DNA of 64,000 bases, taken from assembly GCA_001898625.1 (NCBI GenBank), contig MKUP01000006.1:142296-206295 (forward strand), written 5' to 3'. The notes beneath the pieces are model-generated. The model saw only the letters and a list, made by a program, of their open reading frames with translations. It did no database searches and had not been told where the DNA came from. The stretch is from Burkholderiales bacterium 67-32 (GTDB lineage: Bacteria > Pseudomonadota > Gammaproteobacteria > Burkholderiales > Burkholderiaceae_B). Position 1 is the stretch's first letter. The number at the start of each line of letters is the position of its first letter. Shown one piece after another: positions 31,461 through 45,571 of the stretch. Made by a program: the position numbers and the translations under genes.

Positions 31461-31745
31461 ATGCGTATCGTTAACTACACAGATGCCCGGAACGGCCTGA
31501 AAGCCGTGCTGGACCAGGTGATAGACGACGCGGATGTGACGATCATCACCCGCAGGGATGCGCCTGACGCCGTCGTGATGTCGAAAGAACAATACGACGG
31601 AATCATGGAAACGCTGTATCTCCTGCGGTCGCCTGCAAACGCACAAGTGCTGATGCAGTCGGTGGAAAACATCCGCGCCGGCAAATTCGAGGTTCACGGG
31701 CTCATCGATCCAAAGGATCTGAACCGTGATAAAGAAAGTTCGTAG
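31461..31745 (+). CDS. yefM: Type II antitoxin YefM (Phd/YefM family)
   Basis: 94 aa. It has the Phd/YefM N-terminal DNA-binding fold (MRIVNYTDARNGLKAVLDQVIDDADVTIITRRDAPDAVVMSKEQYDGIMETLYLLRSP) and a C-terminal toxin-binding tail ending RDKESS. Its end overlaps the toxin start by 20 bp, the usual antitoxin-first layout. An AAGGA lies 11 bases before the ATG. Confidence 0.94.
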   Translation: MRIVNYTDARNGLKAVLDQVIDDADVTIITRRDAPDAVVMSKEQYDGIMETLYLLRSPANAQVLMQSVENIRAGKFEVHGLIDPKDLNRDKESS

Positions 31746-32001
31746 GATTGGTTTCGACCCTGCCGCCTGGGAGCAGTATCGGCAATGGGCGGACAACGAT
31801 GCGAAGGTTCTCGAGCGTATCAACAACCTGGTCGAGGACATCGCCCGGGATCCCTTCCGAGGGCTTGGGAAGCCGGAACCCCTGAAGGGCAACCTTGCCG
31901 GGTTCTGGTCGAGGCGGATCGACAACGAACACCGCCTGGTCTATCAGGTGGACGACGCGTTCATCCTGATCGCTCAGTGCAAATACCACTACAAAGTCTG
32001 A
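31726..32001 (+). CDS. yoeB: Type II toxin YoeB (ribosome-dependent mRNA interferase)
   Basis: 91 aa, RelE fold. GTG start inside yefM. Conserved [33 protein letters not shown] and the C-terminal KYHYKV contain the catalytic Glu, Arg, His and Tyr known for YoeB. The reading frame is intact, so the pair looks functional. Placed 85 bp before ychF. Confidence 0.94.
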
Positions 32002-32058: not shown

Positions 32059-32086
32059 CGCTTCCAGATTCTTAAGGAAACCCCCC

Positions 32087-33178
32087 ATGGCCCTGCAGTG
32101 CGGCATCGTGGGCCTGCCCAACGTCGGCAAGTCCACACTCTTCAACGCCTTGACCAAAGCCGGCATCGCCGCGGAAAACTACCCCTTCTGCACGATCGAA
32201 CCCAACGTCGGCGTGGTCGAGGTTCCCGACCCGCGCCTCGATGCCCTGTCGGCCATCGTCAAGCCCGAACGCGTCGTGCCCGCCACCGTCGAATTCGTCG
32301 ACATCGCGGGCCTTGTGGCCGGCGCCAGCACCGGCGAAGGCCTGGGCAACCAGTTCCTGGCCCACATCCGCGAAACCGACGCCATCGTCAACGTCGTGCG
32401 CTGCTTCGAGGATTCCAACGTCATCCATGTGGCCGGCAAGGTCGATCCCATCGCGGATATCGAGGTGATCGAGACCGAACTGGCGCTGGCCGACATGCAG
32501 ACCGCCGAGAAGGCCGTCCACCGCAACAACAAGACCGCCCGGTCCGGCGACAAGGACGCCGCCAAGCTCGTGGCCGTGCTGGAGAAGTGCGTGGCCCAGC
32601 TCAACATGGCCAAGCCGATACGCGCGCTCGACCTGTCCGACGAAGAGAAAGCCCTGATCAAGCCGCTGTGCTTCATCACCGCCAAGCCCGCCATGTACGT
32701 GGGCAACGTCAAGGAAGACGGCTTCACCAACAATCCCCTGCTGGACAAGCTGGTCGAGTACGCCAACAAGCAGAACGCGCCCACCGTGGCCATCTGCGCC
32801 GCCATCGAAGCCGAACTGGGCGAGATGGAGGACGAGGACCGCGCGGTGTTCCTGGCCGACATGGGCATGGAAGAGCCCGGCCTGAACCGCCTGATCCGCG
32901 CCGGCTTCAAGCTGCTGGGCCTGCAGACCTATTTCACCGCCGGCGTGAAGGAAGTGCGCGCCTGGACCGTGCCCATCGGCGCCACCGCGCCGCAGGCCGC
33001 GGGCGTGATCCACACCGACTTCGAGCGCGGCTTCATCCGCGCGCAGACCATCGCGTTCGACGACTTCATCCAGTACAAGGGCGAGGCGGGCGCGAAGGAA
33101 GCGGGGAAGATGCGGGCGGAAGGGAAGGAGTACATCGTCAAGGATGGGGATGTGATGAACTTCCTGTTCAACGTCTGA
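32087..33178 (+). CDS. ychF: Redox-responsive P-loop ATPase/GTPase YchF (OLA1)
   Basis: 363 aa. G1 motif GLPNVGKST at the N-terminus, G3 [10 protein letters not shown], then the coiled-coil insert, the NMEE-like specificity region and the C-terminal TGS-like domain ([39 protein letters not shown]...KDGDVMNF). Start [16 protein letters not shown]. In relatives it lies near pth; here some 16 kb of accessory genes intervene. It is the last backbone gene before the genomic island. Confidence 0.96.
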
Positions 33179-33306
33179 CGATTTTTCCGGATCTCAGGAG
33201 CGTTCGGTAGCGCTTGGTGGATTCGGCAGGCCTTTTGAAATCAAGGGCTTGCCAAACAATACGGTCTACTGAGCGTTCCTATTGTTCATCGAGGTCTGAA
33301 AAATTC

Positions 33307-33347
33307 GGGGGTAGCGTTGGGGGTACTCGTGTTCAACCGTGGGGGTA
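33307..33347 (+). repeat. Three GGGGGTA direct repeats before the integrase
   Basis: GGGGGTA occurs at 33307, 33319 and 33341 in the same orientation, 26 bp or more before the integrase start. Such short direct repeats resemble arm-type binding sites of P4-like integrases and would mark the left attachment region of the island. The core att sequence was not identified. Confidence 0.5.
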
Positions 33348-33372
33348 CTTTTCCCCGCAGTGGAGTCCAACG

Positions 33373-34556
33373 ATGCCCGAAAACCTACTCACCGACCTCA
33401 AGGTCAGGTCGGCCAAATCGACTGATCGAGATTGGAAACTTTCAGACGGCGGGGGCCTGTTCCTGCTGGTCAAGCCCACCGGCGGCAAGCTCTGGCGGTG
33501 GAAGTACCGCCTGCAAGGCAAGGAGAACCTCTTTGCCATTGGCGGTTTTCCTCAAGTAAGCCTTGCGGAGGCGCGTGCGGCCCGAGAGAAGGCGCGCGCC
33601 TTGGTAAAGCAAGGTATCCATCCTACCCATGAACGGCAGCAGATCAAGCAGCGCAACCTGGAAGCACTGGAGGAGCACAAGCGCGCCCGTGAAAGCTCGT
33701 TTGCCAAGGTAGCGAAAGCGTACCTGGCGGAGATCAAACCGGTCTTCGCGCTCAGCTCCTACCGCACGAAAGAATCCCGTATCAGGAAGTACCTGTGGCC
33801 CAAGTTCGATGGGAGACCGATGAGCGACATTGGTGTGAAGCAGATTCGTCCGCTGCTGGAGGAATGCAAGGCCCATGGTGCGTGGGCGGCCATCCATGTC
33901 AAAGGTGATCTTTCGGCGATCTTCGAGTTTGCGGTGGTGCGGGGGCTGGTCGAGGCAAATCCAATTCCCAGCCTGCGCGGGCTGCTACGCGTGCCGTTCA
34001 GCAAATCCAGAAGTTCTATCAAGAGTTGCGCGGCTACCGGGGCTATCCGGAAACTTCGTTGTGCCTGCGGCTGATTGCGCTGACCGCCTGCCGTCCAGGG
34101 GAAGCGGCGGATGCCGAGTGGGACGAGTTCGACTTTGAGGATGCGCTGTGGCGTAGGCCTGCCGCGAAGATGAAAGCGCGGCGCGACCATGTCAGCCCGT
34201 TGTCGGTGCAGGCCATTGCCGTGCTGAAGGATTTGCAGTGCATCACGGGCGGCGGCCGCTATCTGTTCCCACACCGGAGCGGCAAGGGCTTCACTACGCC
34301 CAACCGACTGACCTATGCGATGCGCGACATGAACCTGGGCCGGGGTACGACACCGCATTGCTGGCGGACGACCTTTTCAACCTGGGCCAATGAGAACGGA
34401 TACCGGCCTGATGCGATTGAGCGGCAGCTTGCCCACGTGGAAAGCAACAAGGTTCGGGCGACCTACAACAAGGCGCTGCTGCTGGATCAAAGAAGGACGC
34501 TGTTGCAGGACTGGGCGGACTACCTGAGTGCTGCGGAAGGCAGCGGCACGGCATAG
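33373..34556 (+). pseudogene. Tyrosine recombinase/integrase, P4 type, frameshifted
   Basis: Two reading frames together give a near full-length integrase (about 395 codons). Frame 1 (from MPENLLTDLKVRSAK) encodes the N-terminal arm-binding domain (LSDGGGLFLLVKPTGGKLWRWKYR...GGFPQVSLAEARAAR) and the SAM-like core domain up to about 33990. The continuation AVQQIQKFYQELRGYRGYPE is in another frame from about 33993. The catalytic half is all in that second frame: Arg in ACRPGEAADAEW, HCWR, LAHVESNKVRATYNK with His and Tyr. A single-base indel explains it. As read, the enzyme is probably inactive unless the shift is a sequencing error or programmed. Confidence 0.88.
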
Positions 34557-34904
34557 GAAAGAGTTGGCCGGATGTTGCAGAACGAATGGACAGGGGTGGC
34601 CTTTTCCTTTTCTGGATAGGGCCGTTGTCCCTTGAGTGCCGTTCCCTTGCCGTTTGCATTTGCCGAAGGCTGGGCGCTTGTAATGGGGTAAATAATGAAA
34701 TAAATGGGGCAATTGTTGATTGGTTGCCCCATTTTTTGGATTCATGTCACCCATTTCCTCCTCGGTCAGCCATGCCAGCTCCTCGCGACGGTCCAATGTT
34801 CAGGAAATGGGGTAGTCAAACACCTTTAATGAGGCATTTTTAGAGGCAATACCCCATTTAAAGGCTACGATTACCCCATTTAGACAGCCTGAGCTTACAT
34901 TTCC
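34557..34904 (+). promoter_or_regulatory. fic operon upstream region with repeated AAATGGGGTA boxes
   Basis: A 348-bp AT-richer gap without a convincing gene. The box AAATGGGGTA or its complement occurs at 34682, 34702, 34724, 34805, 34849 and 34871, in both orientations. The last two (TACCCCATTTA) are direct repeats 22 bp apart (two helical turns), ending 22 bp before the fic start. They are probably operators for the defence operon. Confidence 0.6.
34702..34737 (+). terminator. Hairpin with T-tract after the integrase
   Basis: Perfect 11-bp arms AAATGGGGCAA and TTGCCCCATTT, an 11-base loop, and a run of T at the end. Shape of an intrinsic terminator separating the integrase from the fic operon. 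Its arms are two of the repeated boxes of this region. Confidence 0.65.
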
Positions 34905-36017
34905 ATGCACTCGCTCACACCCGAGTACCTTGCCGCGCTTCGCTTCGATGGCACTCAGGCCGCCACGTTGCGCACACTGGGCGAGTACCAGGGTAAGCAG
35001 CAACTCTACGCTGCGCAGTCGGCCGAAGCCCTAAAGGGGCTACGCCAGATCGCGGTGGTGGAGTCCACCGAGTCATCCAACCGGCTGGAAGGCGTTGTCG
35101 TAGCGCCCTCGCGGCTGAAGTCTCTGGTCATCCGCAACGCAACGCCAAAGAGCCGTTCCGAACAGGAGATCGCCGGCTACCGTGATGGCCTGGCGCTGAT
35201 CCACGAGTCCGCCACGCACATGCCCTTCAGCGGGGGTGTTGTGCTGCAATTACATACCCTGCTGTACCGCTATATGCCGCAGGCGGGCGGGCGCTGGAAG
35301 GCCACCAATAACGACATCGTCGAGCGTCACCCGGATGGCACGTCGCGTCTGCGCTTCCAGCCAGTTGCTGCGCACCTCACGCCAATGGCCATGGCTGATC
35401 TGACCGGGCGCTACGCCACCGCGCTGGACCAGCATCTGGCAGACCCTTTGGTACTGGTGCCGCTGGCGATGCTCGACTTCCTGTGCATCCACCCTTTCCC
35501 GGACGGCAACGGTCGCATGTCCCGCTTGTTGACCCTGCTGCTGCTCTACCACTTCGACTATGCCGTGGGTCGCTACATCAGCTTGGAACGCATCTTCGAA
35601 GACACTAAGGAAGGTTATTACGAGACGCTGGAAGCCAGTTCGCAGGGCTGGCACCAGGGGCAGCACGACGTAAAGCCCTGGCTCGACTACTTCTGGGGTG
35701 CCTTGCTACGGGCCTACCGTGAGTTCGAGGAGCGTGTCGGCACCATCGAACGGGGACGTGGCAGTAAAGGCGACCGGGTGCGGACGGAAGTTCTGGGGCG
35801 TAGCCTGCCGTTCTCGATTTCCGAAATTGAAGAAGCTTGCCCGGGCGTGAGCCGGGGCATGGTTCGACTAGTGCTGCGGGCGATGAAATCAGAGGGGTTG
35901 ATCGAATCAACCGGAAAAGGCCGAGGGGCGAAATGGCTCCGTACCGCAGAAACACTGGGCACCACAGAAAACAGAGCGCTGGCATCCAGCCAAGCCGGCA
36001 ACAAAGATGGATATTGA
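34905..36017 (+). CDS. Fic-domain protein (adenylyltransferase family) with C-terminal winged helix
   Basis: 370 aa. Catalytic Fic motif HPFPDGNGRMSRL (His196) and an N-terminal inhibitory-helix motif SSNRLEG (about 57-62), the class II autoinhibited arrangement. A C-terminal wHTH (FSISEIEEACPGVSRGMVRLVLRAMKSEGLIES) suggests DNA binding. Family enzymes transfer AMP to protein hydroxyls. First gene of the type I restriction operon; its 3' end overlaps hsdM by 11 bp. It may modify and control operon partners or act as a toxin when DNA methylation fails (hypothesis). Confidence 0.9.
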   Translation: MHSLTPEYLAALRFDGTQAATLRTLGEYQGKQQLYAAQSAEALKGLRQIAVVESTESSNRLEGVVVAPSRLKSLVIRNATPKSRSEQEIAGYRDGLALIHESATHMPFSGGVVLQLHTLLYRYMPQAGGRWKATNNDIVERHPDGTSRLRFQPVAAHLTPMAMADLTGRYATALDQHLADPLVLVPLAMLDFLCIHPFPDGNGRMSRLLTLLLLYHFDYAVGRYISLERIFEDTKEGYYETLEASSQGWHQGQHDVKPWLDYFWGALLRAYREFEERVGTIERGRGSKGDRVRTEVLGRSLPFSISEIEEACPGVSRGMVRLVLRAMKSEGLIESTGKGRGAKWLRTAETLGTTENRALASSQAGNKDGY

Positions 36018-38784
36018 AGTGACAAGTATCGAACAGAAGATCGAGCGCTTTATCAGCACGCTCGAAACCATGGGCGGTTCCACCGGGAACCAGCGGTTGC
36101 GCGAGGCATTGGGATGGCAGGAATCCACTTATGACAGCATCAAGCAGCAACTGATCGAGGAGGGGCGGATCATTCCCGGTCGAGGGCGCGGCGGTTCGGT
36201 TGCCCTGGCTACGACAGCCTATACGGCCAACAAAGAATCAGCGACATCGTTGGAAGTACGCGAAGCCGCCGTGCCGTACCTGAAGACAAAAACGAAAGCA
36301 GATTCGTTATCGCGGGACCGAGCAACTGCTACCCCTGTCGCCAAGACGCTTGCCCCGCGCAACGGCGTCGTCAAGAAATCCGACCTCTACAGTTCCATCT
36401 GGGCATCGTGCGATGAACTGCGTGGCGGCATGGATGCCAGCCAGTACAAGGACTATGTCCTGTTCATGCTGTTCATCAAGTACATCAGCGACAAGTACGG
36501 CAACAGCGACGACTTCGCCCCGCCCGTGGTCATTCCACCGGGCGCGTCATTCAAGGACATGGTGGCGCTCAAGGGCAAGGACGACATTGGCGACAGGATC
36601 AACACCCAGGTCATCCAGAAGCTGATCGACGCCAACACCAAGCTGGCACGCAGCGACTTCCCCGACTTCAACGACCCCAACAAGCTCGGCGAAGGCTCAG
36701 CCATGGTCGAACGGCTGGGCAACCTGATCGCCATCTTCGAAAAGCCCGAACTGAACTTCGCCAACAACCGCGCCGACAACGATGACCTGCTTGGCGATGC
36801 CTACGAATACCTGATGCGCCACTTCGCCCAGGATTCCGGTAAGAGCAAGGGCCAGTTCTACACGCCGTCCGAGGTCAGCAGCGTCATCGCTCAGGTGATT
36901 GGCATCTCATACGCCAACACCAAGGCTTCAACCACCGCGTATGACCCGACATGCGGCTCAGGATCGCTGTTGCTGAAAGTGGCTGCTGAGGCAGGTCGGC
37001 AGATCACCCTGGAAGGGCAGGAAAAGGACGTGACCACCGCCGGCCTCGCGCGGATGAACATGATCCTGCACGACTTCCCCAGCGCCACCATCCTCAGCGG
37101 CGACACGCTGGTGAACCCCAAGTTCAAGGATGGCGAACAACTGCGTGCTTACGACTACGTGGTTGCCAATCCGCCGTTTTCCGACAAGAAGTGGTCCACC
37201 GGCCTCAACCCGGCCAACGACCCATACCACCGTTTCACCTGGGGCGAGCCGCCCGCCAAACAGGGCGATTACGCCTACCTGCTGCACGTCATCCGCAGCA
37301 TGAAGGCCACCACCGGCAAGGGCGCCGTCATCCTGCCGCACGGCGTGCTGTTCCGTGGCAATGCCGAGGCCCATATCCGCAGACACTTAGTGCGCTCCGG
37401 CATGCTCAAGGGCATTATCGGCCTGCCTGCCAACCTGTTCTACGGCACTGGCATCCCCGCCTGCATCCTGGTGCTGGACAAGGAAAACGCCAGCGCCCGC
37501 AAGGGCATCTTCATGATCGACGCCAGCAAAGGCTTCATCAAGGACGGCCCCAAGAACCGCCTGCGCGAGCAGGACATCCACCGCATTGTCGATGCCTTCC
37601 GCCGTAGCGCGGACGAGCCGCGCTATGCCCGTATGGTGCCGCTGGATGAAATCGCCAGCGAAAAGAACGACTACAACCTCAACCTGCCACGCTATATCGA
37701 CAGCAGCGAACCGGAAGACCTGCACGACATCGATGCCCACCTCAACGGCGGCATTCCCGAGCGCGACATCGACGCTTTTGCCGCCGATTGGCAGGAAATG
37801 CCTGCCCTGCGCCAGGCGCTGTTCGAGGCTGAGCGCCCCGGTTATGCGCGACTGCGCCAGCCGATGGCCGAAGTGCGTTCCGTCATCCTCGCCCACCCGC
37901 AGTTCCAGCAATTCCGCAGCAAGGTGGAAACCCTATTCGGCAAATGGCAGCAGGCCGTCATGCCGCTGCTCACCGGCATCCAGCCCGGCGACAAACCCAA
38001 GGCGCTGATAGTGCAGGTCTCTGAAACCCTGCTCACTACCTTCCACGCTGCGCCGTTGCTCGACCCCTACGACATCTACCAGCACCTGATGGACTACTGG
38101 GCCGAAACTATGCAGGACGACGCCTACCTGGTCGCCGCCGACGGCTGGAAGGCGCTGCCCCGGCGCATCGTGGAAACCGACAAGAAGGGCAAGACCAAGG
38201 ACAAGGGCTGGACCTGCGATTTGCTGCCCAAACAATACATTGTCGCCCGCTACTTCGCCGCCGAGCAGGCCGAACTGGACGCGAAACAGGCCGAGCTTGA
38301 TAGCGTCGCCAGCCAGATCGCCGAACTGGAGGAAGAACACAGTGGAGAAGACGGTGCCTTCGCAGGCTTCGACAAGATCAACGCCGCGCAGGTGAAAGAT
38401 CGCCTCGCCGAGATTGGCGATGATCCCGATAGCGCCGACGAACGCGCCGTGCTCAAGCAGTGGCAGCAACTCAGCACCCGTGAAGCCGCGCTGAAGAAAA
38501 CCGTCAAAACGCTGGAGGCGGAACTCGACCGGCAAGCCCACGACCACTACGCCACCCTCAGCGAAGCCGAGGTCAAGAAGCTGGTGGTAGAAGACAAATG
38601 GCTGGATCGCCTGCAAGCCGATGTGCAGCAGGAATTGGATCGCATCTCGCAAACCCTCGCCCAGCGCATCCGCGAACTGGCCGAACGCTACGGCACCCCG
38701 CTGCCTAGGTTGGAAGATGAAGTGGCAGTCCTCAGTGCGAAGGTGGAAGCGCACCTGAAGAACATGGGGGCGGTATGGAAGTGA
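36007..38784 (+). CDS. hsdM: Type I restriction-modification methyltransferase HsdM
   Basis: 925 aa, much longer than the common 500-ish form. Residues 1-70 look like a small winged-helix module (LREALGWQESTYDSIKQQLIEEGRIIPGRGRGG). The HsdM N-domain follows (SSIWASCDELRGGMDASQYKDYVLFMLFIKYISDKYG). The methyltransferase core has motif I DPTCGSGSLL (about 314-323) and motif IV NPPF (about 388-391) for N6-adenine. The last 200 residues are charged and coiled-coil-like, rich in Glu and Lys. It overlaps fic upstream (11 bp) and hsdS downstream (10 bp). Confidence 0.95.
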   Translation: MDIEVTSIEQKIERFISTLETMGGSTGNQRLREALGWQESTYDSIKQQLIEEGRIIPGRGRGGSVALATTAYTANKESATSLEVREAAVPYLKTKTKADSLSRDRATATPVAKTLAPRNGVVKKSDLYSSIWASCDELRGGMDASQYKDYVLFMLFIKYISDKYGNSDDFAPPVVIPPGASFKDMVALKGKDDIGDRINTQVIQKLIDANTKLARSDFPDFNDPNKLGEGSAMVERLGNLIAIFEKPELNFANNRADNDDLLGDAYEYLMRHFAQDSGKSKGQFYTPSEVSSVIAQVIGISYANTKASTTAYDPTCGSGSLLLKVAAEAGRQITLEGQEKDVTTAGLARMNMILHDFPSATILSGDTLVNPKFKDGEQLRAYDYVVANPPFSDKKWSTGLNPANDPYHRFTWGEPPAKQGDYAYLLHVIRSMKATTGKGAVILPHGVLFRGNAEAHIRRHLVRSGMLKGIIGLPANLFYGTGIPACILVLDKENASARKGIFMIDASKGFIKDGPKNRLREQDIHRIVDAFRRSADEPRYARMVPLDEIASEKNDYNLNLPRYIDSSEPEDLHDIDAHLNGGIPERDIDAFAADWQEMPALRQALFEAERPGYARLRQPMAEVRSVILAHPQFQQFRSKVETLFGKWQQAVMPLLTGIQPGDKPKALIVQVSETLLTTFHAAPLLDPYDIYQHLMDYWAETMQDDAYLVAADGWKALPRRIVETDKKGKTKDKGWTCDLLPKQYIVARYFAAEQAELDAKQAELDSVASQIAELEEEHSGEDGAFAGFDKINAAQVKDRLAEIGDDPDSADERAVLKQWQQLSTREAALKKTVKTLEAELDRQAHDHYATLSEAEVKKLVVEDKWLDRLQADVQQELDRISQTLAQRIRELAERYGTPLPRLEDEVAVLSAKVEAHLKNMGAVWK

Positions 38785-40679
38785 AGCCGGGATACAAGCG
38801 GACGGAAGTGGGAGTGATTCCGGAGGATTGGAGTACGGCAGTACTCGGAGATGTTTGTGAATTTGAAAATGGTGATCGTGGTAGCAATTATCCATCTCCT
38901 AACTCATTCAAAGCTATCGGCGTTCCATTCATAAACGCCGGACATCTTTTGAACGGAAAAATTAGTCTTTCTTCTATGGACTACATCACAGAGGAGAGTT
39001 ATGCCCGGCTGGGGGGAGGAAAGGTCAAGGCTGGAGATACATTATTTTGCCTTCGTGGATCACTTGGAAAATTTGGAACTATTCCTCCTAACTTTGGTAA
39101 GGGAGCTATTGCAAGCTCCTTAATTATTGTGCGAAGGAAATTTGGGGGCGTAGTTCAAGATTACTTGAGCAGTTATTTTTCTTCTGATCTATGCGCAAGA
39201 ATGATCGAAAAATGGGCTGGTGGAGCTGCACAGCCAAATCTTGGCGCACAGGACTTAGCTAGATTTTCTATTCCGCTCCCTCCTACAGAGGCTGAACAAC
39301 GCACCATCGCCACCGCCCTCGGCGATATGGACGCCCTGCTGGACGGGCTGGATCACCTGATCGCCAAAAAACGCGCCATCAAACAGGCCACCATGCAGCA
39401 ACTGCTCACCGGCCAAGCCCGCCTGCCGGGATTTGGTGGGAAGTGGGAGGTGAAGCAGTTGGGAGATCATCTGACCTTCCTGAAGAACGGTGTGAATTCG
39501 CGTGCCGAGCTTTCTTACAGCGAAGATGTTCGATACTTGCATTACGGCGACATTCACGGGTCTTCGCGAGTGGAGCTCAACCCCGCCAACGTAGAAATGC
39601 CTTGTCTCCCGCGCGCCAAGGCAAGTCGTTTGGACCGCCTGCAAAACGGCGACCTTATTTTTGCTGACGCATCTGAGGATATGGATGGCGTTGGTAAATC
39701 TGTTGAAATCCAAAATGCAACAGGCATCGAACTGGTCTCGGGGCTGCACACCATTGCAATCAGGTTTGACAAGAGTGTGCTGGCAGATGGTTTCAAAGCC
39801 TATATTCAGTTCATCCCGAAATTCCGTGCTCACCTTCGGCAGCTTGCAGCCGGCACAAAGGTATATGCGACGAATCGAACACATATCGCCAGCGTCGAAC
39901 TGAGACTTCCTGGTATTCGCGAGCAGCAGGCGATTTCCGCTTTGCTCTCCGACATGGATGCTGAGATCGCCGCCCTCGCAACCCGCCGCGCCAAGACCCG
40001 CGCCCTCAAGCAGGCCATGATGCAGGAGCTGCTGACTGGTAGGACGCGGTTGGTAATACCTGATGCCAAACCGGTTGGCGAGGTGGCGGCGCAAACAGAA
40101 GGACGCAAGGCGAACGTCCATTTCCTGAGAAGCGTGCTGGCAGCCGAAATCATCGATCAGTTGCACGATCAGCCGACCTTTGGCCACGTCAAGTTCGAGA
40201 AGATGATGTTCCTTGCCGAACACCTGTGTCAGGTGGATACCGGCTCTACTTACCGCCGCAAGGCCGCTGGCCCATATGACAACCGGGCACTTCGCTCGAT
40301 AGACAGTCAGTTGCAGAAGCAGCAATGGTTCGAGGCGCGAAAGCAAGAAGGCCGTTACCAGTACGTACCACTGGCGAAGCGTGGCGGTCACAAACCGTAC
40401 TTCGAGCGGCATTTTTCCGGAGTTGGCGAAACTCTTGAGAAGATTCTGAGCGCCTTCAAGACTGCTAAAACGGAGCAGTGCGAAATCGTCGCCACCTTGC
40501 TGGCGGCGTGGAGCGATTTGCTGCGTGAGAAAGGAGCCGTCTCCGATGAAATGATCGTGCACGAGGTGCTGCACAATTGGCACGAAGCTAAGCAGCGGAT
40601 ACTTGAGGATCGCTGGCTGATGGCTCTTGGCTGGATGCGAGAGAAAGGTTTTGTGCCGAAGGGAGCGACATTGCCATGA
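38775..40679 (+). CDS. hsdS: Type I restriction-modification specificity subunit HsdS with C-terminal extension
   Basis: 634 aa. Two target-recognition domains, each followed by a conserved helical spacer (RTIATALGDMDALLDGLDHLIAKKRAIKQATMQQLLTG, and QQAISALLSDMDAEIAALATRRAKTRALKQAMMQELLTG). TRD1 (bases 38850-39280) is strikingly AT-rich against the rest of the gene, a sign of domain exchange. After about residue 440 there is an extra 190-residue segment (HVKFEKMMFLAEHLCQVD...GPYDNRALRSIDSQL) not needed for specificity; the K-x2-K-x-L-x-AE...GPYD pattern recalls SocA/Panacea-type proteins, low certainty. ATGA overlap with the next gene. Confidence 0.93.
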   Translation: MEVKPGYKRTEVGVIPEDWSTAVLGDVCEFENGDRGSNYPSPNSFKAIGVPFINAGHLLNGKISLSSMDYITEESYARLGGGKVKAGDTLFCLRGSLGKFGTIPPNFGKGAIASSLIIVRRKFGGVVQDYLSSYFSSDLCARMIEKWAGGAAQPNLGAQDLARFSIPLPPTEAEQRTIATALGDMDALLDGLDHLIAKKRAIKQATMQQLLTGQARLPGFGGKWEVKQLGDHLTFLKNGVNSRAELSYSEDVRYLHYGDIHGSSRVELNPANVEMPCLPRAKASRLDRLQNGDLIFADASEDMDGVGKSVEIQNATGIELVSGLHTIAIRFDKSVLADGFKAYIQFIPKFRAHLRQLAAGTKVYATNRTHIASVELRLPGIREQQAISALLSDMDAEIAALATRRAKTRALKQAMMQELLTGRTRLVIPDAKPVGEVAAQTEGRKANVHFLRSVLAAEIIDQLHDQPTFGHVKFEKMMFLAEHLCQVDTGSTYRRKAAGPYDNRALRSIDSQLQKQQWFEARKQEGRYQYVPLAKRGGHKPYFERHFSGVGETLEKILSAFKTAKTEQCEIVATLLAAWSDLLREKGAVSDEMIVHEVLHNWHEAKQRILEDRWLMALGWMREKGFVPKGATLP

Positions 40680-41731
40680 CTGACAAGCCCGCCTCACTAA
40701 TTCCAGCCCCACAAGGCTACGCCGACTGGCTGTCCGACCTGAAGGGTCGCATCCACACCGCGCAGCAGCGTGCGGTGCTGGCGGTCAACCGGGAACTGGT
40801 GAGCCTTTACTGGCAAATCGGCCGCGACATTCTGGCGCGGCAGGCCGAACAGGGTTGGGGTGCCAAGGTGATCGATCGGTTGGCGCATGATCTGCGCACG
40901 GCGTTCCCGGAGATGAAAGGTTTTTCGCCGCGCAACCTCAAGTACATGCGTGCGTTTGCCGAGGCCTGGCCGGACGCTGAAATTGTGCAGCAGGCTGCTG
41001 CACAATTGCCCTGGGGTCACAACTTGGTATTGCTGGATCGCCTGAAAGCGTCAACGGAGCGCCTGGCCTATGCCCGCGCCGCCATCGAACATGGCTGGTC
41101 GCGGAATATGTTGAACATCCATATCGAAACCCGCCTGCTGGAGCGCACGGGCAAAGCCGTTACCAACTTCGTTCAGCGCCTGCCCGCGCCGCAGTCCGAT
41201 CTGGCCATTGAGTCGCTGAAAGACCCGTACCGCTTCGATTTCCTCGGCCTGGGCGATGAAGCACAGGAGCGCGAGATCGAAAGCGCGCTGGTGCAGCACG
41301 TCACTGATTTCCTGCTGGAGCTGGGTGCGGGCTTCGCGTTCGTTGGCCGGCAGGTGTTGCTGGACGTGGGTGGCGAGGAGTTCTTCATCGACCTGTTGTT
41401 CTACCACCTCAAGCTGCGCTGTTACGTGGTGATCGAACTGAAGGCAGGCAAGTTCAAGCCCGAGCACCTGGGACAACTGGGCTTTTACCTGACGGCGGTG
41501 GATCGGCAGGTGAAGCACGCGCAGGACAACCCGAGCATTGGCCTGCTGCTGTGCAAGAGCAAAAACAAGGTGGTGGCCGAGTACGCCCTGGGCGACAAGT
41601 CGCAGCCTATGGGCATTGCCGAATACAAACTGGTGGAATCCCTGCCGCAAGAGCTGCAAACCAGCCTGCCGACGATCGAACAGATCGAGCGGGAGCTGGG
41701 CAAGCCCATGGATGATGGCACCGAGGAATGA
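40676..41731 (+). CDS. YhcG/DUF1016 family PD-(D/E)xK nuclease
   Basis: 351 aa. N-terminal DUF1016 region (GRIHTAQQRAVLAVNRELVSLYWQIGRDILARQAEQGWGAKVIDRLAHDLRTAFPEMKGFSPRNLKYMRAF) and a C-terminal nuclease-like domain with IDLLFYHLKLRCYVVIELKAGKFKPEHLGQLGFYL, where Asp and E-x-K fit the active site. Such genes often sit inside type I R-M loci; the role is unsettled. Coupled to hsdS by ATGA and followed at once by hsdR. Confidence 0.92.
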   Translation: MTDKPASLIPAPQGYADWLSDLKGRIHTAQQRAVLAVNRELVSLYWQIGRDILARQAEQGWGAKVIDRLAHDLRTAFPEMKGFSPRNLKYMRAFAEAWPDAEIVQQAAAQLPWGHNLVLLDRLKASTERLAYARAAIEHGWSRNMLNIHIETRLLERTGKAVTNFVQRLPAPQSDLAIESLKDPYRFDFLGLGDEAQEREIESALVQHVTDFLLELGAGFAFVGRQVLLDVGGEEFFIDLLFYHLKLRCYVVIELKAGKFKPEHLGQLGFYLTAVDRQVKHAQDNPSIGLLLCKSKNKVVAEYALGDKSQPMGIAEYKLVESLPQELQTSLPTIEQIERELGKPMDDGTEE

Positions 41732-41735
41732 TGCG

Positions 41736-44700
41736 ATGACCCAACCCATGGCGCGCTCCGAGCGCAACAGCCAAAACCGCGTTGCCCGGCTGTTCACCAC
41801 CCCACCGGTCAATGGCGGCCTGGGCTACGAGCACCTGGGCAACTGGAGCAAGCGCGATCACAACCGCGCCATCGAAGTCGATCTGCTGCGCGCCAACCTG
41901 TCTGCTCGTGGTTATTCGCCATCCCACATCAGCGCTGCTTTGCAGAAGCTGGAAGTCGCCGTGGATGTCACCGGCATCACGCCCTATCAGGCCAATCTGC
42001 GCACCTACCAGTTACTTCGCTATGGCGTGCCGGTGCAGATCGCGGCGGGCCAATCGCATGAGACAGTGCAGTTGATCGACTGGGCGCAGCCCGAGCGCAA
42101 TCACTTCGCGCTGGCTGAGGAAGTGACGCTGCGGGGCGGGAGCACCCGTCGGCCGGACATCGTTCTGTACATCAATGGCTTGGCGGTGGCGGTGATCGAG
42201 CTCAAGCGCAGCTCGGTTGATGTGGGCGATGGTATTCGCCAGTTATGCAGCAATCAGGAGGAAACCTTCAATCAGGGCTTCTTCAGCACCGTGCAGTTGC
42301 TGCTGGCGGGCAGCGATGCGCAAGGTTTGCGCTACGGCACCACCGGCACACCGGAACAGTTCTTCGTGCAGTGGAAGGATGAACAACCGTCAGCCATGGC
42401 AACAGCGGGCGCGTTGCTGGATCGTCCGTTGGTTCAGATGTGCGAGAAGGCGCGGTTGCTGGATTTGATCCGCAACTTCGTGATCTTCGATGCGGGTTTC
42501 AAGAAGGTGCCCCGGCAACACCAGTACCAGGGCCTCAAGGCCGCGCAGGAACGCATCGCCAAACGCGAGGGTGGCGTGATCTGGCACACCCAGGGTAGCG
42601 GCAAGAGTATCCTGATGGTGTTGTTGGCGAAGTGGTTGCTGGAACACGACCCGCAGGCGCGGGTGCTGGTGGTGACCGACCGCGACGAGCTGGACAAGCA
42701 GATTGAAGGCGTGATGCGCAATGCCGGGGTGATCGGCGAGGGATCGGCTCCTCCGCGCATCACCTCACGCGCGGACTTCGTGCAAAAACTCAGTGCCACC
42801 ACACCACGCTTGTTGTGCGCATTGATCCACAAGTTCGATGCGGCTGATCTCAAGGGTGTGCCACCGCCTATCCATGGGCGTTTCTATGTGTTCGTGGACG
42901 AGTGCCACCGCACCCAAGGCGGCAACATGAACAAGCAGATGAAGCGCTGGCTGGCCGACGCCATCTTCATCGGCTTCACCGGCACGCCGCTGTTGCGCAA
43001 GGATCGGCAAACCACCCGCGAAGTGTTCGGCACGTATATCCACACCTACAAGTTCCACGAAGCGGTGGCCGACAAGGTGGTGCTGGATTTGAAATACGAG
43101 GCCCGTGATGTGCCGCAGCGACTGACTTCACGCAAGGCCATCGATGCCTGGTTCGAGAAGAAAACGCGCGGACTAAACAACTTCCAGAAATCCATCCTGC
43201 GCAAGCGCTGGGCCACGATGGAAGAGCTGATGAGCGCCAAGGAGCGCAAGGATCGCATCGTCGCCAACCTCATCGAGGATTTCAGCCTCAAGCCTCGCCT
43301 GGACAATGATCGTGGCACGGCGATCCTGGTGGCGGCTTCGATCTATGATGCCTGCCATTACCTCCGGTTGTTTCAGAACACGCATTTCGGCCCCCATGTG
43401 GGCATCATCACCTCGTACGAACCCAACCCGGTTGCCATCTCGAAAGAATCGGCCGGTAGCGACGAACGCTACAAATACGACACCTACAAGCAGCATGTGC
43501 TGCGCGCCGGCCAGACTACCAAACAGTACGAAGACGAAACCAAGCGACGCTTCATCGAAGAGCCTGCCAGCATGAAGCTGCTGATCGTGGTCAGCAAGCT
43601 GCTCACCGGTTTCGATGCACCCAGCTGCTCCTACATCTACCTGGACAACGAACTGCACGACCATAACCTGTTCCAGGCCATCTGCCGTACCAACCGGCTT
43701 GACGGTGACGACAAGGACTATGGCCATATCGTCGATTACAAGGAGCTGTTCGGTGACGTGCAACAGGCCATTGCGGTGTACAGCTCCGACGAACTGGACA
43801 TCGACACAGGCAACGGCGGCGAAAACAACGTCCACCTGAAGAACTGGCTGGAGGAAGGCCGCAAGCAGCTGGACGAAGCCCGTGAAACGCTGCATTACCT
43901 GTGCGAGCCGGTTCCGCAGCCGCGAGATCTTGAGCAGTTCATCCACTATTTCTGCGGCCACGCTGGTAATTCGGAGGCGCTGCTGGAAAGCGAGGCGCTG
44001 CGCATTGCCTTCTACAAGGCGGTGGCGACCTATCTGCGTGCCTTCGCGGACATCGCTCAGAACCTGACCGAGGCGGGTTACTCAGACAGCGAAGCTGACA
44101 CCTTGCGGCGAGAAACCGAGTTCTATGCCGAAGTGCGTTCGGCCATCAAGCATTACAGCGGCGAAGAGCTGGACATCAAGCCCTATGAGGCCGACATGCG
44201 TCACCTCATCAACACCTATATCCAGGCCGAGCCAGCGCAGGCGTTGGGCGAGTTGGCCGAACTGTCGCTGACCGAGCTGATTATCGAGACCGGCATCCAC
44301 AATGCCATCGCCAAGAAGCTCAACGAGAAGGGCAAGCTGTCGAAGAACGCCATTGCGGAAACCATCATCAACAACGTCCGCAAGACCATCATCCGAGATC
44401 GCCTGACCGACCCGCGCTTTTATGAGCAGATGTCCAAGCTACTCGATGACTTGATCCAGCAAAGCCGTGAAGGCACTGAGGCTTACGAAGCATTCTTGAG
44501 CAAGGCGGAAGACATCCTGAAGAAGCACCGCGCGAAACAACACGACATCGATGAACCTGCCATGTTGCACGGCAATGCAGGTGCGCTGGTGATTTATCGC
44601 AATCTTCCTGACATCATTTCCAGCGATGTGCTGCCCGATGCGGGTGGTGTAGTCAAAGAGCCACAGGCCGAATACGGAGACCTGTTGGCCTTGCTGGCGC

Positions 44701-44861
44701 TGAAGATCGATCGTGTGATGCGTGACGAAGCCCCGGCAGGATGGCGTGGCGATGAAGCCAAGGAGCGCATCGTGCAGAATTTCCTGCATCCGTTGACCGG
44801 ACGCAACCGCGAGGCCACGCTAAAACTATTCGATTTGCTGAGAAATCAGCCGAACTACTGA
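41736..44861 (+). CDS. hsdR: Type I restriction endonuclease subunit HsdR
   Basis: 1041 aa. Nuclease domain PD-x(n)-ELK at about 139-157 (RRPDIVLYINGLAVAVIELKRSS). SF2 translocase with Walker A QGSGKS (about 286-292), VDECHR motif II (about 386-391) and FTGTPLL motif III. The C-terminal helical part binds the HsdMS complex. Start MTQPMARSERN with GAGGA 9 bases upstream; the stop shares a base with the next start. With HsdM and HsdS it makes a complete restriction enzyme. Confidence 0.95.
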   Translation: MTQPMARSERNSQNRVARLFTTPPVNGGLGYEHLGNWSKRDHNRAIEVDLLRANLSARGYSPSHISAALQKLEVAVDVTGITPYQANLRTYQLLRYGVPVQIAAGQSHETVQLIDWAQPERNHFALAEEVTLRGGSTRRPDIVLYINGLAVAVIELKRSSVDVGDGIRQLCSNQEETFNQGFFSTVQLLLAGSDAQGLRYGTTGTPEQFFVQWKDEQPSAMATAGALLDRPLVQMCEKARLLDLIRNFVIFDAGFKKVPRQHQYQGLKAAQERIAKREGGVIWHTQGSGKSILMVLLAKWLLEHDPQARVLVVTDRDELDKQIEGVMRNAGVIGEGSAPPRITSRADFVQKLSATTPRLLCALIHKFDAADLKGVPPPIHGRFYVFVDECHRTQGGNMNKQMKRWLADAIFIGFTGTPLLRKDRQTTREVFGTYIHTYKFHEAVADKVVLDLKYEARDVPQRLTSRKAIDAWFEKKTRGLNNFQKSILRKRWATMEELMSAKERKDRIVANLIEDFSLKPRLDNDRGTAILVAASIYDACHYLRLFQNTHFGPHVGIITSYEPNPVAISKESAGSDERYKYDTYKQHVLRAGQTTKQYEDETKRRFIEEPASMKLLIVVSKLLTGFDAPSCSYIYLDNELHDHNLFQAICRTNRLDGDDKDYGHIVDYKELFGDVQQAIAVYSSDELDIDTGNGGENNVHLKNWLEEGRKQLDEARETLHYLCEPVPQPRDLEQFIHYFCGHAGNSEALLESEALRIAFYKAVATYLRAFADIAQNLTEAGYSDSEADTLRRETEFYAEVRSAIKHYSGEELDIKPYEADMRHLINTYIQAEPAQALGELAELSLTELIIETGIHNAIAKKLNEKGKLSKNAIAETIINNVRKTIIRDRLTDPRFYEQMSKLLDDLIQQSREGTEAYEAFLSKAEDILKKHRAKQHDIDEPAMLHGNAGALVIYRNLPDIISSDVLPDAGGVVKEPQAEYGDLLALLALKIDRVMRDEAPAGWRGDEAKERIVQNFLHPLTGRNREATLKLFDLLRNQPNY

Positions 44862-45571
44862 TGACGCAGACGCACATACGTCTGGGGGAACTAGACATCG
44901 CCGTCACGTTCAAGGCCGTGAAGAATGTCCATCTTTCCGTGCATCCGCCCGAGGGGGTGGTAACGCTGGTGGCACCAACGGGCACACGGCTGGAAGTGGC
45001 TCGAGCCTATGCCGTTTCCAAGCTGCGTTGGATTCGCCAGCAACAGGCGCAATTGCAGGCACAGTCCCGCGAAACTCCTCGCCAGTTCGTTACCAGGGAA
45101 AGCCATTACATTTGGGGACGCCGCTATCTGCTATCGGTGCTGGAGCGCGATGCCCCGCCTAAGGTGAAGATGGATCACAGGCGCATCACCTTGTTTGTGC
45201 GCCCCGGCACCAACGCAGCCAAGCGCGAAGCCATCTATCAACGCTGGCAACGCGGTTTGCTACACCAAGCTATTTCACCCCTGATCGAATACTGGGAGCC
45301 GCGTATCGGCGTGAAGGTCAATGGCTACTTCCTGCAACGGATGAAAACCAAATGGGGTAGTTGCAATCATCGCCAGGCTCACATTCGGCTCAACACGGAA
45401 CTGGCCAAGAAGCCTCGTGACTTGCTTGAATATGTGATCGTGCATGAAATGATCCATCTGATCGAACCGACGCACAGTGAGCAGTTCATATCGTTGCTGA
45501 CCCAACACTATCCTGCCTGGCGGGATGCTCGTGCGGAACTGAACGCGCTGCCGCTGGGACAGACTGTTTGA
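44861..45571 (+). CDS. YgjP/SprT-like M48-type metallopeptidase (DUF45)
   Basis: 236 aa. Zinc-protease motif VIVHEMIHLIEPTHSEQF with HExxH at about residues 195-199 and a later HSEQF. The N-terminal half is the DUF45 beta domain (VRPGTNAAKREAIYQRW). Last gene of the defence operon, TGATG junction with hsdR. A protease placed after hsdR could remove the restriction subunit when needed (alleviation) or activate it; this is inference. Confidence 0.92.
   Translation: MTQTHIRLGELDIAVTFKAVKNVHLSVHPPEGVVTLVAPTGTRLEVARAYAVSKLRWIRQQQAQLQAQSRETPRQFVTRESHYIWGRRYLLSVLERDAPPKVKMDHRRITLFVRPGTNAAKREAIYQRWQRGLLHQAISPLIEYWEPRIGVKVNGYFLQRMKTKWGSCNHRQAHIRLNTELAKKPRDLLEYVIVHEMIHLIEPTHSEQFISLLTQHYPAWRDARAELNALPLGQTV

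Follow-up and report, generated by a model that had tools for sequence, protein, structure and literature searches.

A six-gene cluster at the 3′ end of ychF

The window, by which we mean the whole stretch of 64,000 nucleotides that was analysed, contains six genes on the same strand (fic, hsdM, hsdS, yhcG, hsdR and ygjP; Table 1), which overlap by 11, 10 and 4 bp, are then separated by a 4-bp gap and finally overlap by 1 bp, as the original prediction had described. Its description of a tightly packed cluster resembling one operon, set in a defence island, is likewise supported. The GC content is 0.55–0.62 per 2 kb from ychF to ygjP and 0.64–0.73 elsewhere in the window. The operator-like array before fic, the extensions of HsdM and HsdS and the integrase frames behind ychF are additions to what the original prediction described. 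We infer from the sequence that the six genes are probably carried on one transcript. A YoeB-type toxin gene lies at 31726–32001, immediately upstream of ychF and adjoining the island.

Table 1. Genes and sequence features of the locus, in window coordinates.
Feature	Position	Strand	Description
ychF	32072–33178	+	island inserted at its 3′ end, from translation and genome comparison
tyrosine integrase, two overlapping frames	33214–34074, 34026–34556	+	Pfam Arm-DNA-bind_3, Phage_int_M, Phage_integrase
distal array	34680–34737		three operator-like half-sites; also reads as terminator-like hairpin
proximal operator	34806–34880		A 34806–34816, B 34828–34838, B′ 34848–34858, A′ 34870–34880
-10-like hexamer	34866–34871		TACGAT, overlaps A′
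fic	34905–36017	+	class II Fic; inhibitory motif and, at the C terminus, a winged helix; first gene and proposed autorepressor
hsdM	36007–38784	+	Pfam HsdM_N and N6_Mtase
HsdM N-terminal extension	36007–36360		118 residues
hsdS	38775–40679	+	Pfam Methylase_S
HsdS C-terminal extension	40080–40676		about 199 residues
yhcG	40676–41731	+	DUF1016/PD-(D/E)XK nuclease; Pfam DUF1016_N and YhcG_C; PADLOC PDC-S02; cargo gene
hsdR	41736–44861	+	motor and nuclease subunit; Pfam HSDR_N, SWI2_SNF2 and T1R_D3-like
ygjP	44861–45571	+	SprT-like zinc metallopeptidase; Pfam YgjP-like

The families of all six genes were assigned by Pfam, and PADLOC agrees for all but YgjP. The domain set of a type I restriction-modification system is present, with the N6-methyltransferase in HsdM, target recognition in HsdS and the motor and nuclease in HsdR, and YhcG matches DUF1016_N and the PD-(D/E)XK domain YhcG_C with E values of 6.3e-44 and 3e-64. 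The motifs examined in the translations of Fic, HsdM, HsdR and YgjP are intact; outside Fic, those that we take to be the characteristic ones read NPPF in HsdM, TQGSGKS and DECH in HsdR, and HEMIH in YgjP.

Class II Fic proteins carry an N-terminal inhibitory motif, (S/T)xxxE(G/N). The Fic protein of the window belongs to class II by sequence, with SNRLEG, which we take to be the inhibitory helix, and HPFPDGNGR, presumably the Fic motif, both of which are kept in the aligned homologues. The catalytic motif is given as HPFx(D/E)GN(G/K)R in passages of PMC2686095. A Fido domain-containing protein in the PDB (8uqu) is near-identical to residues 1–347 (E 7.5e-225), and our literature search found no paper naming that structure. 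The predicted structure of Fic is poor (37.2), with moderate confidence for the winged helix alone. At an E value of 0.01 Pfam gives only the Fic family for this protein, and no WYL domain. The PADLOC model for SoFic matches it with 114.9 bits; an assignment as SoFic was dropped, as the NCBIfam model NF046030 gives 36.7 bits against a curated cut-off of 550.

The hsdR–ygjP pair and the cargo slot

Relatives of HsdM were sought in a collection of one genome each for 84,980 species, and the best 80 listed (58–93% identity) come from Proteobacteria, Chlorobi, Acidobacteria, Verrucomicrobia, Planctomycetes, Chloroflexi, Cyanobacteria, archaea and others. Among these best 80 listed, 51 loci could be assessed for ygjP, having a complete hsdR and more than 800 bp of contig beyond it, and ygjP follows directly after hsdR in 51 of 51, so that the association of ygjP with hsdR lies far above chance, as had been predicted. 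Of these 51 loci among the best 80 listed, 46 have an estimated spacing of -4 or -1 bp and the remaining five one between -7 and 35 bp, and the HExxH zinc site of YgjP is kept in every one. In the same loci the pairwise distances of HsdR and YgjP are strongly correlated (Mantel r = 0.90, reached by 0 of 2000 permutations), with a lower value for HsdM and HsdR (r = 0.80). Proteolysis of HsdR by YgjP would fit this co-inheritance.

In 114 genomes of the class, the window's own included, YgjP lies 2.3–2.7 kb beyond HSDR_N on the same strand for 20 of 59 HSDR_N matches scoring 75 bits or more, weaker matches being left out. From the two counts we regard ygjP as belonging to the core of the present type I lineage, and not to that of type I systems at large. 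An insertion sequence adjoins hsdR in an E. coli plasmid relative that stands outside the counts, and no ygjP is listed there.

The N-terminal extension of HsdM recurs in 3 of the best 80 listed HsdM relatives, and also in L208, L218 and L220, three of the fic loci described below. For the C-terminal extension of HsdS no convincing relative was found in Pfam or the PDB, and none in viral contigs; it matches the C-terminal part of the PADLOC HsdM model PDLC03039, and because of this match the domain may move between subunits. A reading of this extension as a Panacea-like antitoxin domain was dropped, the model being too poor (mean pLDDT 48.2).

The original prediction also placed yhcG within the hsd unit. 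The association stands in so far as yhcG is often found beside hsd genes, but yhcG is exchangeable cargo and not a fixed part. Proteins matching the Hsd proteins of the window were found in 15 of 40 YhcG neighbourhoods from the order, which were selected strong matches and not in strict rank order, and this is a lower bound because other restriction-modification classes are missed. Conversely, YhcG matches occur in 9 of the best 80 listed HsdM loci. From the YhcG and HsdM surveys we therefore consider YhcG a common defence cargo. One or more extra open reading frames of at least 80 residues lie between hsdM and hsdR in 34 of 56 loci among the best 80 listed, as found by a simple picker, and some of these are probably not genes; the cargo counts are rough, as the picker hides real genes behind longer antisense frames (yhcG in L045–L047). 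The cargo that was scanned comprises other types of Fic, GmrSD, AAA_13, AbiEii with DUF6088, FRG, PLD, AlbA/DUF4062-type proteins, PD-(D/E)XK nucleases and Bro-N, and two without a match. On sequence evidence, yhcG is one of many cargo genes in a variable hsdM–hsdR slot.

Operons and operator-like sites that accompany fic

Fic-like genes have been reported beside Campylobacter hsd loci. We collected 35 loci with a Fic protein of at least 72% identity, namely the window's own genome, 13 others from 399 genomes of the order, 17 from 200 genomes of the family, one from 369 genomes of the class, the genome contig L045, one viral contig and the sole plasmid above 60% identity among 75 matching plasmids. 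For each kind of operon, families were scanned in one locus or a few, and the others were placed by tblastn to those. In a raw count over fic loci alone, Fic heads a restriction-modification or defence operon in 23 of the 35, and these operons are of nine kinds, three of them type I; fic often overlaps the next gene or leaves a gap of at most 10 bp. The kinds are type I with YhcG and YgjP (five loci: the window, L045, L208, L218 and L220), another type I with Ppl-like and HEC-05-like genes (L160), PLD-SNF2 with type IIG and SIR2 (L161, L211), DruE-like with DrmMI-like (L162, L163, L210, L213, L215, L217, L222), a type III methylase behind a 1037-residue protein (L164, L212, L216, L221), DrmD with weakly Ppl-like and AbiU-like genes (L165), Wadjet JetABC (L167), a further type I (L236), and an MmeI-like protein with YhcG and a helicase-like gene (L005). 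The 1037-residue protein matches no PADLOC family. The DruE-like loci combine a DruE-like helicase and another large protein with a DrmMI-like methylase, which looks like a hybrid of Druantia and DISARM. In L005 (5842–14189) the genes run Fic, MmeI-like, what we take to be a RhuM-like gene, YhcG (83%), a further open reading frame and the helicase-like gene; the layout with Fic first and YhcG inside is seen here again in another restriction-modification class.

No recognised operon lies behind fic in the other 12 of the 35 loci (L125, L166, L168–L171, L186, L209, L214, L219, L223 and L224), where the genes behind fic were mostly judged by strand and by searches; in L186 fic lies at a contig end, and L219 holds an hsdR remnant. 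A defence operon was found behind fic in 19 of the 24 loci at 88% identity or more and in 4 of the 11 at 72–81%, and none was recognised at three Fic loci of 57–63% identity, in one of which (L187) the 1401-residue protein behind fic matches no PADLOC family. Two loci with Fic at 47–48% identity (L175, L190) have an HsdM-like gene close behind and no operator.

Besides the window, four loci (L045, L208, L218, L220) share the full six-gene order behind the same fic, but the neighbourhood is not one fixed device as the original prediction framed it. The idea of fic as a fixed part of the hsd unit did not hold up, since the same Fic heads unrelated systems in the 35-locus set and a Fic of this kind is found in 1 of the best 80 listed HsdM relatives, some of whose contigs are cut upstream. 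Two loci, L046 and L047, carry hsd, yhcG and ygjP without fic, so fic is dispensable in some hosts. The distribution is best read as that of a portable fic, with the operon behind it apparently exchanged as a block.

The six-gene cluster as a whole is best read as a mobile defence island, often at ychF. The integrase between ychF and fic is apparently broken, and in L045 a 490-residue open reading frame occupies its position. Judged by eye, 4 of the 11 genus genomes compared, the window's own among them, carry the same island start immediately behind ychF, and a further locus of the genus (L235) has an apparent piece of yhcG at ychF. ychF lies upstream of fic in 19 of the 24 loci with Fic at 88% identity or more, and in none of the 10 searched in the 72–81% group, where mostly about 2 kb upstream or less was covered. 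Neither the window nor the stretches retrieved for 17 other loci contain a right-hand repeat of the ychF end at 25 of 38 matches, and short cores of this end do not recur elsewhere in the window. L045, L160 and L161 have a convergent gene beyond the operon, probably, we assume, a second recombinase, with sequence near the gene start common to them; the open reading frames listed for the window contain no counterpart of it after ygjP.

The region before fic contains repeated copies of the half-site AATGGGGTAAT, which form a nested operator-like array around a -10-like hexamer, and 5 of the 6 copies of CCCCATTT in the 64-kb window fall within the 210 bp before fic. The proximal layout is A-B…B′-A′, with a spacing of 20–22 bp from A to B and from B′ to A′; in the window the B half-site is degenerate, with 3 mismatches. 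The distal array may be a terminator. When 150 bp before fic were scanned with up to 2 mismatches, all 34 loci scanned at 72% identity or more had at least two half-sites (four in 16, three in 14 and two in 4), with 0.02–0.07 expected from 300 composition shuffles per locus; in the 35th locus, L236, the array is visible by eye. In the 11 loci whose Fic is at or below 50% identity the scan gave not even one half-site, and at 57–63% it gave three in L189 and a single one in both L187 and L188. Much of the likeness between operators reflects recent descent, because Fic is at least 88% identical in 24 of the 35 loci, and the weight of the conservation is carried by the 11 loci at 72–81%. Apart from the half-sites, the upstream regions of this group fall by eye into several sets that look unlike each other, L165, L125 and L166 going together, and L186 with L236.

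A hexamer of the form TANNAT, overlapping A′, is present in 35 of the 38 loci at 57% identity or more, the exceptions being L170, which was mis-anchored and has TATTAT at the right place, L005, which has TAATGT, and L189, which was anchored on B′. The -35 is weak (GAGGCA), and a sigma-70 scan gave no promoter before fic, the region yielding 4 sites with 4.2 expected. The array precedes a lone fic (L125) as well as fic before MmeI-like (L005), Wadjet (L167) and type III (L164) genes; without fic, L047 has a degenerate array before hsdM and L046 a single half-site. Since the array tracks fic across unrelated contexts and precedes it where it stands alone, the winged helix of Fic is the most economical candidate for the binder. 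In L187 and L188 (Fic 61–63%) the half-site reads ATTACCCACTT, and the recognition helix and wing are changed as well, a possible case of coevolution in two loci only. The conserved operator-like sites over the putative fic promoter point to transcriptional autoregulation, and we propose the Fic-winged-helix protein as the candidate autorepressor.

A proposed switch in front of exchangeable defence operons

We suggest, and regard as probable, that the locus is a mobile island at ychF in which the Fic-winged-helix protein binds A-B…B′-A′ and represses both itself and the swappable operon behind it. Fic would bind the half-sites around its own promoter, and bound Fic would keep fic and everything downstream repressed; infection or damage would trigger release, perhaps via the AMP-transfer site or a loss of autoinhibition. 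Type I restriction would then act, with YhcG as an added nuclease, and YgjP might trim or clear HsdR or stalled HsdR–DNA complexes, by analogy with ClpXP, whose part in the restriction alleviation of type I systems is described in passages of PMC12255303. In this copy the block is of type I and belongs to the M-S-[cargo]-R-YgjP lineage, YhcG being its cargo. More tentatively, one Fic protein could be repressor and AMP-transferase at once, its enzyme state (autoinhibition, nucleotide or self-AMPylation) setting DNA binding and so coupling a cellular signal to defence expression; we consider this a possibility that falls somewhat short of an even chance.

Alternatively, Fic could itself be the effector, an abortive toxin like Sofic that modifies host proteins by AMPylation on infection, with an autoregulated promoter that merely happens to drive the genes behind it. 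The PADLOC match to SoFic, the 12 fic loci without a recognised defence operon and the report of Sofic as a toxic defence protein (passages of PMC12249575) speak for such a toxin, and the two proteins are alike in being class II Fic with an N-terminal inhibitory helix and a C-terminal domain. The present Fic nevertheless falls far below the equivalog cut-off for SoFic, has the conserved operator-like array, and stands first in 23 of 35 loci, in operons of nine kinds, often with an overlap or almost no gap to the gene behind, which suggests more than accident; we consider this explanation unlikely.

The original prediction suggested a dedicated post-translational control, with Fic as AMPylator of HsdM or HsdR and YgjP as the protease that degrades HsdR. 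It would be in keeping with the single gene cluster and with the co-inheritance of YgjP with HsdR, but the same Fic heads systems that have no Hsd proteins and is rare among the best 80 listed HsdM relatives, some of them on contigs cut upstream, so that a dedicated AMPylator of HsdM or HsdR is unlikely and the scheme as a whole improbable. It is also rather improbable that transfer has passively gathered functionally unlinked fic, yhcG and hsd genes into a defence island: the wide variation of the cargo and the two loci without fic are what such clustering would give, yet it leaves unexplained the ygjP found in all 51 loci assessed among the best 80 listed, the overlapping gene ends and the array that follows fic.

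Several known systems resemble the proposed Fic switch. The RRDM locus of EPEC has the order RptR-hsdM-hsdS-darT-darG-hsdR-M48 and is reported to protect against phage and to be under repression by the product of its first gene (passages of PMC12255303). Both loci have a regulator or putative regulator first, then hsdM-hsdS, cargo between S and R, hsdR and a zinc metallopeptidase last, whereas the head is a Fic-winged-helix protein here and RptR there, and the cargo YhcG here and DarTG there; the likeness is one of gene order, the operators of the two not having been compared base by base. BrxR/CapW, also encoded by a first gene, is a repressor with inverted-repeat sites that heads many kinds of defence system (passages of PMC9122601, in which the word Fic does not occur). 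The Fic head differs from it in showing no WYL domain in Pfam, in its AMP-transferase domain with inhibitory helix and in its four nested half-sites. CapH+CapP and CapK+CapS, portable transcription switches upstream of varied immune operons (passages of PMC13373217), are two-protein switches, in contrast to the single Fic protein here. By analogy, the Fic head is best read as a Fic enzyme that works as BrxR/CapW, CapH+CapP, CapK+CapS and RptR do. Our literature search, which covered titles and the starts of abstracts and few subscription papers, found among the papers listed no Fic head of defence operons and not these families together; one paper, PMC10782964, names type I restriction-modification, Fic and DUF1016 once each.

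How bacteria silence dangerous defence systems and yet hold them in readiness is an open question, for which few switches are known. If our proposal is true, a Fic enzyme and its operator would constitute a new class of switch for the restriction, Wadjet, type III and Druantia/DISARM-like operons behind them, orphan Fic-winged-helix proteins would gain a testable job, and the operator would serve as a marker for finding new defence operons. The constant hsdR–ygjP pair, for its part, suggests a built-in protease for HsdR in place of ClpXP, an idea that is directly testable.
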